A DNA stretch of 16,365 nt. Source: Oscillospiraceae bacterium. Lineage in GTDB: Bacteria; Bacillota_A; Clostridia; Oscillospirales; Oscillospiraceae. The translations under genes were made by a program, and so were the position numbers. Positions 267 to 16,365 of this stretch are shown here, piece after piece; the first letter of the stretch is position 1; each line of letters begins with the position of its first letter. Location: contig JAETOP010000086.1 of assembly GCA_021771675.1 (NCBI GenBank), positions 1 to 16,365 on the forward strand, written 5' to 3'. The notes beneath the pieces are model-generated. The model did not search any database and had not been told where the DNA came from. It saw only the letters and a list, made by a program, of their open reading frames with translations.

Positions 267-475
267 CAAATTGTAATTTGGCAGGCAGGTACGGATTACC
301 TGTAGGGGCGGCTATTAGCCGCCCGCGCAGAACCATCCCCGAAAATGGTACAAGTTCAGGCAAATTCGTATCATTTCCCATTCACCGGAACACTCAAAAT
401 ACATTACTTGGCGGGAGGCTAATAGCCTCCCCTACGGTGAAAAGGGCCATGCGGCAAATCGTCAAATTACAATTG
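267..475. repeat. inverted-repeat element A (MITE-like)
   Basis: The element is bounded by CAAATTGTAATTTG (267-280) and CAAATTACAATTG (463-475), which are inverted copies. Inside are two hairpins in inverted arrangement: GGGCGGCTA-T-TAGCCGCCC near 305-323 and GGGAGGCTA-A-TAGCCTCCC near 413-431. The first 114 nt match the element at the right edge of the window with seven mismatches by hand alignment. No coding capacity is evident. It fills most of the gap between the terminator and the hydrolase gene, and no promoter for that gene is recognisable in it. Confidence 0.8.
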
Positions 476-3342: not shown

Positions 3343-3615
3343 ATGGACAGACCCTGGCAGCTCTACCTGCTGCGCTGCGGCGACGGCACGCTGTACACCG
3401 GCATCGCCCTGGACGCCCAAAAGCGTCTTGCGATGCACCAAAGGGGCAGGGGGGCCAAATACACCCGGGGCCGGGGTCCCCTGGAGCTGGTGTACACCGA
3501 AACCTGCCCCAGCCATTCCCAGGCCCTGAGACGGGAGCTGGAGGTAAAGGCCCTGACAAGGGAGGAGAAGGAAGCGCTGATTACCAAAGGCTTGGAATTA
3601 GGAGTTAGGAATTGA
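3343..3615 (+). CDS. GIY-YIG nuclease-like protein (YhbQ/UPF0213 family)
   Basis: This 90-residue single-domain protein matches the small stand-alone GIY-YIG family. The two core strands are QLYLLRCGDG (6-15) and LYTGIA (17-22), followed by the helix DAQKRLAMHQRG with Arg28, the GAKYTRGRGPLELVY segment (37-51), and the RRELEVKAL helix with Glu66 as the expected metal ligand. In vivo substrates of the family are not settled; DNA-structure nuclease activity is reported for relatives. The gene follows the membrane protein by 1 nt. Its last residues (LELGVRN) and the TGA stop are encoded by a heptamer repeat array that opens element B, so the original C-terminus was probably replaced by repeat insertion. 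Confidence 0.88.
   Translation: MDRPWQLYLLRCGDGTLYTGIALDAQKRLAMHQRGRGAKYTRGRGPLELVYTETCPSHSQALRRELEVKALTREEKEALITKGLELGVRN
3594..3613. repeat. TTAGGAR heptamer array, left end of element B
   Basis: About three imperfect heptamers (GGAATTAGGAGTTAGGAATT) encode the end of the GIY-YIG protein, whose TGA stop starts at the last T. An inverted array lies at 4420-4452. Confidence 0.8.
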
Positions 3616-3805
3616 GTGTGCTGGCAGCCCGGCAAATTGGAGCTTGGCGGCGAGTCGCCGCAGCCAATTTCGCACGGGGATGGTCTGTGGTCGTCACCCC
3701 AATATAAGCCCGGTAACGATTTTACGGCACGTCGTTGGTTGCTGTGGTGCGGGAGCACCCAAAGGCTCCCCTGTGTAAGGGGAGCTGTCAGCGAAGCTGA
3801 CTGAG

Positions 3806-3842
3806 GGACTGTACAGCAGGCACTGAAATAATTGTACAGTCC
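3806..3842 (+). promoter_or_regulatory. leader inverted repeat before the DUF559 gene
   Basis: GGACTGTACA (3806-3815) and TGTACAGTCC (3833-3842) form a perfect 10-bp inverted repeat with a 17-nt spacer, ending 6 nt before the GGAAAGG ribosome site. A nearly identical copy stands in element C (12881-12918, reversed). It could be an operator, an RNA hairpin limiting translation, or a recognition site for the nuclease. Confidence 0.45.
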
Positions 3843-3861
3843 AATGTGGAAAGGAATGCCA

Positions 3862-4242
3862 ATGCAGTCGAAATATAACAAGCAGTTGGTTTTATTTGCA
3901 AAGCAGCTGCGAAATGGAATGACGAAAGAAGAGCGGCATCTCTGGTATGACTTTCTGCGTACCTACCCTGTCCGCTTTTCCAGGCAAAAAATACTGGGGA
4001 AATACATCGCTGATTTTTACTGTGCGGAAGCCAAACTGGTTATTGAACTGGATGGTTCTCAGCACTATGAGGACAGGAACATGGAAAAGGACGAGGAGCG
4101 TACTGCTTTCCTGGAGGCTTACGGTTTGACGGTGATTCGTATTCCCAATAATGAAATCAACAGAAATTTCACTGGTGTTTGTGAGTATATCGATTCTGTG
4201 GTAAAGCGTTCGCTTTGCGCCCAACAGAATGCAAATCCGTAA
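3862..4242 (+). CDS. DUF559 (Vsr-like) endonuclease domain protein
   Basis: This 126-residue protein belongs to the DUF559 family, related to very-short-patch-repair and other PD-(D/E)XK endonucleases. The family pattern is clear: TKEERHLWYDFLR (21-33), FSRQKILGKYIADFYC (39-54), LVIELDGSQHYED (59-71), and YGLTVIRIPNNEI (87-99). Asp51, Glu62, Asp64 and His68 are probable active-site residues. The length is typical of the stand-alone form. ATG 3862 was chosen because GGAAAGG lies 7 nt upstream; ATG 3844 and 3856 are too near or before that site. The gene is richer in A and T than all its neighbours and lies alone between 101-nt inverted repeats, both suggesting arrival by transfer. Its biological role is unknown; it may act on the surrounding repeats. 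Confidence 0.85.
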   Translation: MQSKYNKQLVLFAKQLRNGMTKEERHLWYDFLRTYPVRFSRQKILGKYIADFYCAEAKLVIELDGSQHYEDRNMEKDEERTAFLEAYGLTVIRIPNNEINRNFTGVCEYIDSVVKRSLCAQQNANP

Positions 4243-4419
4243 GGTTTCACTGCACAGTCCCTCAGTCAGCTTCGCTGACAGCTCCCCTTACACAGGGGAG
4301 CCTTTGGGTGCTCCCGCACCAGTGCAACCAACAACGTGCCGCAAAAGCGTTACCGGGCGGGTCAGGGCGAAAACGATGATAGACCAGCTTCGAGCGAATT
4401 GTCAGCGGCCACTGGCCGC

Positions 4420-4452
4420 AATTCCTCATTCCTAACTCCTAATTCCTAATTC
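4420..4452. repeat. heptamer array, right end of element B
   Basis: Four to five units read AATTCCT, CATTCCT, AACTCCT, AATTCCT, AATTC, the reverse complement of the TTAGGAR heptamer. It lies in inverted orientation relative to the array at 3594-3613. The remaining 66 nt before the reductase gene contain only a GGGGC-GTTT-GCCCC hairpin (near 4482-4495) without a T tract. Confidence 0.75.
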
Positions 4453-12498: not shown

Positions 12499-12515
12499 CT
12501 TGAGATATGAGATAA

Positions 12516-12550
12516 TGAGGAATTAGGAGTTAGGAGTTAGGAATTAAGAA
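12516..12550. repeat. TTAGGAR heptamer array beside element C
   Basis: Five heptamers stand in tandem: TGAGGAA, TTAGGAG, TTAGGAG, TTAGGAA, TTAAGAA. The array begins 18 nt after the terminator and ends 11 nt before the left end of element C. No counterpart is seen at the right end of that element. Confidence 0.75.
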
Positions 12551-12561
12551 ATTTTGCTGTG

Positions 12562-13095
12562 CAAATTGTAATTTGAAGCGCAGGGCGCTTCACCCCAATT
12601 CGCACGGGGTAGTCAGTAATTACCGCATAAGTATTCGCCCGGTAACGTTTTCTGGGCAGAAGATTGGGTGAGTTAGGGTGACGGTTTCTGAGCAAAGGCT
12701 CCCCTGTGTAAGGGGAGCTGGCACGGCGAAGCCGTGACTGAGGGACTGTGCAGTAGAATGTTCCCTATTTGCACCATATCGGGCGAATACCGGAAGTGTT
12801 CGTCTACTGCAATCCCTCCTTTTCAGTGCTCCCTGTTATTGTGAAAAAAGATGGAGAATTGGATCGTACCTTTCCACATCGGACTGTGCAATCATTTCAG
12901 TGCCTGCTGTACAGTCCCTCAGTCAGCTTCGCTGACAGCTCCCCTTACACAGGGGAGCCTTTCTCAGAAGCCGTTACCTGTTACCACTCAACGTTTTGCT
13001 CAGAAAACGTTACCGGGCGAATGATTATGTGGCAATTACCAACCGCCTCCGTGCGGCATTGGGGTGAAGCGCCCTGCGCTTCAAATTACAATTTG
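12562..13095. mobile_element. element C: gene-less relative of the DUF559 element
   Basis: A perfect 38-bp terminal inverted repeat (12562-12599 and 13058-13095) begins CAAATTGTAATTTG and includes a GAAGCGC-AGG-GCGCTTC hairpin. Inner inverted modules share GGTAACGTTTTCTG, the GCTCCCCT-GTGTA-AGGGGAGC hairpin (12698-12718), and a second hairpin that is CACGGC-GAA-GCCGTG on the left but GCTGAC-type on the right. The central segment near 12870-12925, read on the minus strand, matches the leader of the DUF559 gene including the GGACTGT repeat and ATGTGGAAAGG. The gene itself is missing. I see no open reading frame of note in the central 150 nt. This element fills most of the 817-nt gap between the two transporter operons. 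Confidence 0.75.
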
Positions 13096-14063: not shown

Positions 14064-14311
14064 GGGGGCCAAACTCGCTTGGAGATGGTCTGTGGTCGCT
14101 ACCCCCGAGCTCAGCCCGGTGACGCTTTTGCCGATGAATTCGCCGCACCACCCTTTTCACTGTAGGGGAGGCTATCAGCCTCCCGCGCAGAACAATCCCC
14201 AAAAGCGGCACCAAGTCAGGCAAATCCGCACCGTTTTCCATTATCTGGCCCCATTCACCGGAACAATCAGAAACCGTTACGAAAGCGGGAGGCTAATAGC
14301 CTCCCCTACGG
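14064..14311. repeat. repeat element F inside the amino-acid importer locus
   Basis: Two repeat modules lie side by side. The first (about 14064-14130) shares GATGGTCTGTGGTCG and CCCGGTGACGCTTTTG with the left arm of element B. The second (about 14161-14311) is homologous to element A: TGTAGGGG plus a GGGAGGCTA/CAGCCTCCC hairpin, CGCGCAGAACAATCCCC, and the inverted end CGGGAGGCTA-ATAGCCTCCCCTAC (14286-14309). No gene is present. The remaining stretch 14312-14418 shows neither a clear promoter nor a terminator, only the ribosome site of the permease. Confidence 0.7.
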
Positions 14312-14418
14312 GATGTCTTAAATTGACGACATTGTCCCAAAGGGAGAGGCAAGAGCGTCTGCGCCTCCACGAATTACCATCGGGCCGCGCCCGCTAAAAA
14401 GATAAAGGAAGAAGCTCC

Positions 14419-16251: not shown

Positions 16252-16365
16252 CAAATTGTAATTTATCGGGCAGGTACAGATTACCCGTAGGGGCGGCTAT
16301 TAGCCGCCCGCGCAGAACAATCCCCGAAAATGGTACAGGTTCAGGCAAATTCGTATCATTTCCCA
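16252..16365. repeat. element E, left part, truncated by the window edge
   Basis: Starting at CAAATTGTAATTT the sequence matches the first 114 nt of element A (267-380) with seven mismatches and no gaps by hand alignment, including the GGGCGGCTA/TAGCCGCCC hairpin and CGCGCAGAA. The right half lies outside the window. Confidence 0.85.

Follow-up and report, generated by a model that had tools for sequence, protein, structure and literature searches.

A 16,365-nt stretch of DNA from an Oscillospiraceae bacterium (contig JAETOP010000086.1; the whole stretch is called the window hereafter) carries a small gene of the DUF559 family between two inverted hairpin arms. We conclude, with a probability of about two in three, that this locus represents a copy of a minimal autonomous mobile element, organised like those of the REP-associated tyrosine transposases (RAYT; REP, repetitive extragenic palindrome) and run by an unrelated nuclease of the PD-(D/E)XK fold. 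The unit recurs in relatives, it has spread, and its enzyme and its arms are paired. A sequence-only reading of the window had proposed a RAYT-like system built on an unrelated enzyme, and this is still the best reading because the repeats are enriched at the flanks of DUF559 genes, the ends of the unit recur, a probable empty site was found and the arm class follows the enzyme clade. All comparisons were made against relatives rather than against the window's own whole genome.

The element in the window

The DUF559 gene (3862..4242, forward strand; 126 amino acids) is the sole credible open reading frame (ORF) between the arms, with its ATG at 3862 and its end at 4242. The GC content is 46% over 3751-4250 and about 55–65% across most of the window. 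From repeat searches and folding, the full left arm was placed at 3708..3816 (forward strand), including an outer hairpin GGTGC-GGGA-GCACC, and the full right arm, from the repeat search, at 4250..4358 (reverse strand). They are 109 nt long and 94% complementary, with 433 nt between them. The earlier description of a low-GC gene lying alone between inverted arms was thus confirmed, and the 101-nt arms that it had given (3712-3812 and 4254-4354) are contained in the 109-nt ones.

Within each arm lies a core made of a double hairpin and a purine tract, and both cores fold well beyond shuffled sequences. Sequence comparison placed the left core at 3761..3812 (forward strand; DNA fold z −4.1 on 3763-3816). 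It consists of hairpin 1, GCTCCCCT-GTGTA-AGGGGAGC, hairpin 2, GTCAGC-GAA-GCTGAC, and the purine tract TGAGGGA. The right core (4254..4305, reverse strand; z −5.1 on 4250-4304) is an inverted copy of the left one with TTT after it, and judging from this layout it could double as a terminator. The left core is 49 nt from the ATG, and the right core begins 11 nt past the stop. The window copy is atypical and belongs to a sub-lineage: its left arm, like its right one, belongs to the right-end type, and the ORF reaches into neither of them. The C-terminus of its protein is resembled by those of the near relatives P0002, P0003, P0004 and P0006. Directly upstream of the element ends a gene with a GIY-YIG domain (3343-3615; E 9.5e-16), which we take to be probably an ordinary URI-type nuclease gene.

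The protein matched PF04480 (E 1.1e-30), while PF18741 and PF10881 stayed below their cut-offs; the Y1 tyrosine transposase domain PF01797 was not among its Pfam matches. Residues invariant in alignments include D51, E62, D64 and H68, and the conserved acidic core is present. In the structural model the protein folds like the homing endonuclease I-Bth0305I and like Vsr, both EDxHD-type nucleases. The predicted fold and the acidic core agree with the earlier assignment to Vsr/PD-(D/E)XK-like nucleases. DUF559 genes are under strong purifying selection (median ratio of nonsynonymous to synonymous substitution rates 0.061; 425 pairs, 63 genes).

The window also holds a pair of arms without a gene at 12694..12962, delimited by repeat comparison (an arm at 12694-12749 and a right-type arm at 12911-12962), in accordance with the earlier statement that the same arms recur there without the gene. 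It looks like a decayed derivative of the DUF559 element, because 94 nt of it match the left arm and leader of the element at 97%, in inverse orientation. The heptamer arrays that had been described as part of the packaging are present, though short (4.7 units at 4420-4452; similar runs at 2341 and 12512), and they are no part of the unit common to relatives. Runs of TTAGGAA/TTAGGAG (2341-2363, 3594-3616, 4420-4452 and 12512-12548) edge repeat-rich intergenic regions, the gene-bearing and gene-less elements included. A perfect 38-nt inverted repeat, CAAATTGTAATTTGAAGCGCAGGGCGCTTCACCCCAAT, surrounds the gene-less element (12562-12599 and 13058-13095), so that palindromic elements are nested here. 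A second interspersed palindromic repeat with the core GCGGGAGGCTAATAGCCTCCCCTAC has several copies in the window (267-459, 14127-14312 and 16252-16365).

Recurrence and spread of the unit

A protein search gave at least 8,000 scored candidates, all with E ≤ 1e-10; each of two protein searches returned at least about 8,000. Many of the 120 relatives listed sit on contigs of 0.5–2 kb, which is expected because assemblies break at repeats. A genome scan yielded at least 573 confirmed relatives, of which the best 80 were taken for locus comparison. In most of these 80 the sequence immediately 5' of the ATG is the end of an arm built as AAGCCTCCCTTGTGTAAAGGGAGGTGGC-hairpin-GACGGAGGGATTGT, whose partner starts within the last codons.

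We scored the flanks in a set comprising the window, the 80 loci, two loci from viruses and another 60 that hold further DUF559 genes of the same genomes (147 ORFs, 145 scorable). The sequence-only reading had asked whether DUF559 genes of related Clostridia are flanked by the inverted repeat far more often than random genes are; compared to control sites this was the case: a score of at least 14 was reached by 114 of the 145 DUF559 ORFs and by 1 of 255 equally long control windows from the same loci, and a score of at least 16 by 107/145 and 0/255, respectively. When 14 repeated ORFs (places taken twice or near-identical copies) were removed, the figures were 103/131 and 97/131. Of the 71 unique ORFs that make up the closest set, 65 passed (L037, L038, L056, L067, L072 and L076 failed); the rate was lower, 37/60, for the further genes of the same genomes. 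A hairpin with a pyrimidine stem adjoins the ORF on at least one side in 131/140 cases and on both sides in 106/140, compared to 19/600 and 0/600 among controls (duplicates kept). Thus, a gene packaged between arms stood up, but the unit common to relatives is the gene with double-hairpin arms of ~50 nt and not with the whole 109-nt arms. Outer modules enclose elements of two arm classes (L004, L008-L010, L013-L015, L018 and L153), with TATACACC..GGTGTA on the left and, on the right, a terminator-like hairpin ending in AACTGTTTTACGA or similar, hinting at a shared target or a composite element.

The pairing extends to other phyla. In a plasmid collection 37 records had a DUF559 match, and 14 among those listed were taken, spread across genera. 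The pyrimidine-stem hairpin adjoined the gene in 10 of these 14 loci and in 8 of 269 control windows. All ten are from Proteobacteria or Deinococcus: Sphingomonas (2), Sinorhizobium (2), Sphingobium, Shinella, Azospirillum, Photobacterium and Deinococcus (2). The score was not reached in the Novosphingobium, Synechocystis, E. coli and Thermoactinomyces loci of this collection, with related palindromes seen by eye in Novosphingobium and E. coli. In Sphingomonas (L229) the DUF559 gene lies between transhydrogenase genes, with the left arm 5' of the ATG and the right arm over the stop. The Deinococcus gene (L237) is flanked by paaD and paaZ; at that place a relative (L247) has 83 nt and no DUF559 gene.

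In E. coli the DUF559 gene ycjD lies between sapF and fabI, its stop is inside an arm of the type of BoxC, a repeat compared below, and an intact type-A motif follows downstream. A PSPxPSP or SPSP C-terminus was found in 94 of 120 YcjD relatives (the underlying DNA was inspected for E. coli only). At sapF-fabI an RND efflux block replaces the ycjD-BoxC locus upstream of fabI in the two strains without ycjD that were inspected (L242 and L245 compared to L243 and L244). The A + B pair of BoxC between hrpB and mrcB of MG1655 is absent in P276M and AVS0655, and EH2252 is without its middle only; the short form occurs in 20 of 60 evenly spread records, and the breakpoints at this pair are too unclean for a duplication to be read.

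For the borders of the unit we used the locus L047 as a query against 69 genomes of its genus. Matches in three genomes (G172, G164 and G145) span exactly L047 748-1199 and those in two more (G176 and G142) agree within 3 nt, at 88–93% identity; the recurrent borders give an element of 452 bp. The left flanks of these matches, where readable, are unlike that of L047, with one site common to G172 and G176. A further genome (G140) has three copies, 92–97% identical over about 450 bp. Their right flanks carry a common tail, and their left flanks are 52–55% alike, which falls in the 42–58% range of unrelated 60-mers from those loci. The tail, a hairpin chain of ~150 nt (..CTTGTCAATTTTCCTGACAAG..), is found in ruminant Clostridia (L190, L209-L227) after right arms belonging to several repeat classes.

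Precise empty sites in close relatives had been named as the mark of a moving element, and one usable site was found. The genome G150 is without the element at the site that is filled in L047 and L054; the flanking matches, 227 nt long at 94% identity and 117 nt long at 95%, are separated by 34 nt, and from this alignment the place is a probable unoccupied site. Neither this check nor that of the flanking repeats went against the earlier proposal. Butyricicoccus pullicaecorum has one gene match, one forward and one reverse arm core (at most 1 mismatch), as expected of a single arrival. Many relatives have gene-less pairs in which a short spacer separates one left from one right end, and 13 of 15 such pairs inspected measure 118–123 nt from stem to stem. 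Those of L195, L196, L204 and L205 lie within a larger repeated context, e.g. GTTACGAAACCCCGCTCAAGCGGG.. / ..TTTGACACAAGATCATTC.

Among 87 genomes of one family, many of them fragmented so that absences are soft, arm cores were present in 10/10 with a clade-A gene (best E < 1e-45, a threshold set for this analysis) and in 11/77 without (p 9e-8). Taking any DUF559 match, the figures were 12/19 and 9/68 (p 4e-5). In the same genomes, Y1 transposases of the IS200 type showed no association with the arms (9/21 vs 22/66, p 0.44), and neither did the stronger Y1 matches taken separately (5/21 vs 19/66, p 0.78).

The arms also go with particular enzymes. More distant DUF559 genes of the same genomes often bear other arm classes, e.g. 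CTCCCTC-TGAC or CTCTCCC-TTT stems. On a tree of 122 proteins, built from few columns and with a bootstrap that had not fully settled, the arm classes require 20 changes compared to 49.4 with shuffled labels (0/200 as low), and two classes form single supported groups (100/99 and 99/98). An arm class tends to be particular to a DUF559 clade, even when the genes compared belong to a single genome. An arm-encoded peptide (SLSQ-type) forms the C-terminus of the ORF in 76 of 87 clade-A loci (67/77 unique) and in 104 of 120 database relatives. Hairpin 2 is conserved in 68/81 distinct left and 52/58 distinct right segments, over 34 and 30 stem sequences, respectively (shuffles, 14%). When the stem was compared with the purine tract in Clostridia arms, the mirror relation scored 0.767, the direct one 0.697 and shuffled tracts 0.638, and the own mirror beat those of other stems in 22/30; this moderate relation is only a suggestion of triplex recognition.

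Mechanism and alternative explanations

The proposed element consists of one Vsr/I-Bth0305I-like DUF559 nuclease gene with a double-hairpin arm on its left and another on its right. The nuclease would recognise its own arm hairpins, or the folded form of hairpin and purine tract, where DNA is extruded or single-stranded (on the lagging strand, for instance), and would nick at the hairpin bases so that the unit is freed or exposed. PD-(D/E)XK enzymes form no covalent DNA intermediate and cannot join strands themselves; the joining step would therefore be borrowed from the host, which separates DUF559 from RAYT. Host repair and ligation would put the freed or copied unit at another exposed site, and gene-less pairs would be mobilised in trans.

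Several observations weigh against a mobile element of this kind. Cleavage or binding of the arms by DUF559, and its driving of the movement, are steps that we infer and none of them was observed. Most copies of the ruminant clade, including those of G172, G176, G164 and G145, have the ~150-nt tail after the right arm, so that flanks on this side are not independent of one another and the unit that moves may in some cases be larger. The G150 site is only a probable empty site because its right-hand match starts with GAGCCTTTTT, the last 10 nt of the element, and it is possibly a deletion remnant. No target-site duplication was recognised by eye at the printed junctions, where the ends are AAA/TTT-ambiguous. 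One of the three clade-A copies of G140 (L139) has internal stops, and the window copy, with its two right-type arms, may be immobile. In 11 of the 21 arm-bearing genomes no clade-A gene was found (fragmented metagenome-assembled genomes, or another enzyme). The CTCCCC arm class is scattered on the tree, and the agreement of arms and enzymes could come from inheritance as one block.

Three other explanations were weighed. Homing-type spread, in which a free-standing homing endonuclease makes a break elsewhere, at a pair of arms without a gene or at a palindrome related to it, and recombination copies the whole gene in with the arms and neighbouring repeats as homology, stays in consideration because the protein has a homing enzyme's fold and the sites often have neighbouring repeats in common. 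However, the set contains no similar flank for 40 of the 77 upstream and 28 of the 75 downstream ones, and in the operons of Sphingomonas L229 and Deinococcus L237 the gene and its arms stand alone; we regard this explanation as unlikely. That DUF559 is a passenger, captured by palindrome pairs which another enzyme or replication errors move and kept for a separate role in repair or defence, would account for arms in the genomes that yielded no clade-A gene, and the strong purifying selection also fits a host role. It is at odds with the tracking of enzyme clade by arm class even among genes of one genome, with the arm-encoded peptide that ends the ORF, and with the lack of association between Y1 transposases and arms; we take it to be improbable.

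The least probable alternative, to which we give very little credence, is that DUF559 polices the repeats, cutting extruded hairpins or triplexes to limit and not to spread them, with the adjoining arms serving as sensors or terminators. A Vsr-like fold, as modelled, would suit structure-selective nicking, and the right arm with its T-run is like an intrinsic terminator in its sequence; however, a gene with that task would not be expected to spread as a unit whose ends recur. The mobile, RAYT-like element remains our preferred reading.

Comparison with known repeat systems

If the nuclease drives the movement, this would be transposition-like spread by a repair-type nuclease, without transposase chemistry, and a function-unknown family with thousands of members would gain a role. 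The gene-plus-hairpin pairings in very different bacteria further suggest that the little-studied DUF559 may be the missing enzyme of several common bacterial repeats. In its broadest form, which we hold tentatively and with the odds slightly against it, DUF559 would be an unrecognised mobility enzyme of a palindromic-repeat superfamily that reads folded hairpin or triplex DNA, with BoxC/triplex motifs, CGTC-type REPs and the double hairpins of gut Clostridia as gene-less members. The pairing of A-type with B-type BoxC would then be that of a single element's left end with its right end. In the parts consulted of the papers on CGTC REPs (PMC3733652) and on BoxC/intrastrand-triplex motifs (PMC4666352), these two large repeat groups are described without a mobility enzyme. 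DUF559 is a candidate enzyme that is fused to repeats of this style and diversifies alongside them; E. coli K-12 has it as well, so that the question is testable in a laboratory strain. Among the titles and abstract openings listed from the open-access literature, with few subscription papers, no link of DUF559 to mobility or palindromic repeats was found.

Compared to a classical insertion sequence with a DDE, Y1 or serine transposase, the single ORF between the ends is here DUF559. Its closest known counterparts are the Vsr and I-Bth0305I nucleases and PDB 3hrl; no association of DUF559 with mismatch repair, introns or homing sites was seen here. RAYT enzymes are matched to their own repeat class. 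RAYT is an HUH Y1 enzyme, whereas DUF559 has a predicted Vsr-like PD-(D/E)XK fold. The likeness to RAYT lies in the flanking of the gene by inverted hairpin repeats and in the REPIN-like gene-less pairs, that of the window at 12694-12962 included. In REP/REPIN-RAYT systems (GTAG REPs, REPtrons), as far as the consulted part of their description goes, hairpin repeats flank a small nuclease gene, gene-less inverted pairs occur, and the repeats are mostly intergenic and overlap ORF ends (PMC3733652). Read by eye, the DUF559 arms lack the GTAG tag that RAYT REPs have at the hairpin base, and unlike these they combine two hairpins with a purine tract and come in distinct left and right types.

REPs tagged with CGTC (TGTC/CCTC) have an 8–9 bp stem and a CCA tail, are predominantly inverted (HH) dimers and, according to the same part of that description, are apparently without a dedicated transposase (PMC3733652). 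On the other strand, typical Clostridia left arms read as CGTC, a hairpin and a CCA-like tail; the hairpin 2 stems of DUF559 arms are mostly shorter than 8–9 bp, and the window arms bear AGTC/TGTC. BoxC (also PIT or TM_ECO) is described as an intrastrand-triplex motif with 23 copies in MG1655, whose close inverted pairs are always of type A with type B, and the portion of that description seen reports no mobility gene near the motifs (PMC4666352). BoxC resembles the DUF559 arms in its pyrimidine-stem hairpin followed by a G-rich tract, the mirroring of which holds moderately in the Clostridia arms, in its A + B pairing, which is like the two arm types, and in the position of ycjD adjoining a BoxC cluster. 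It differs in having one hairpin and the tract without hairpin 2, whereas the DUF559 arms have two hairpins.
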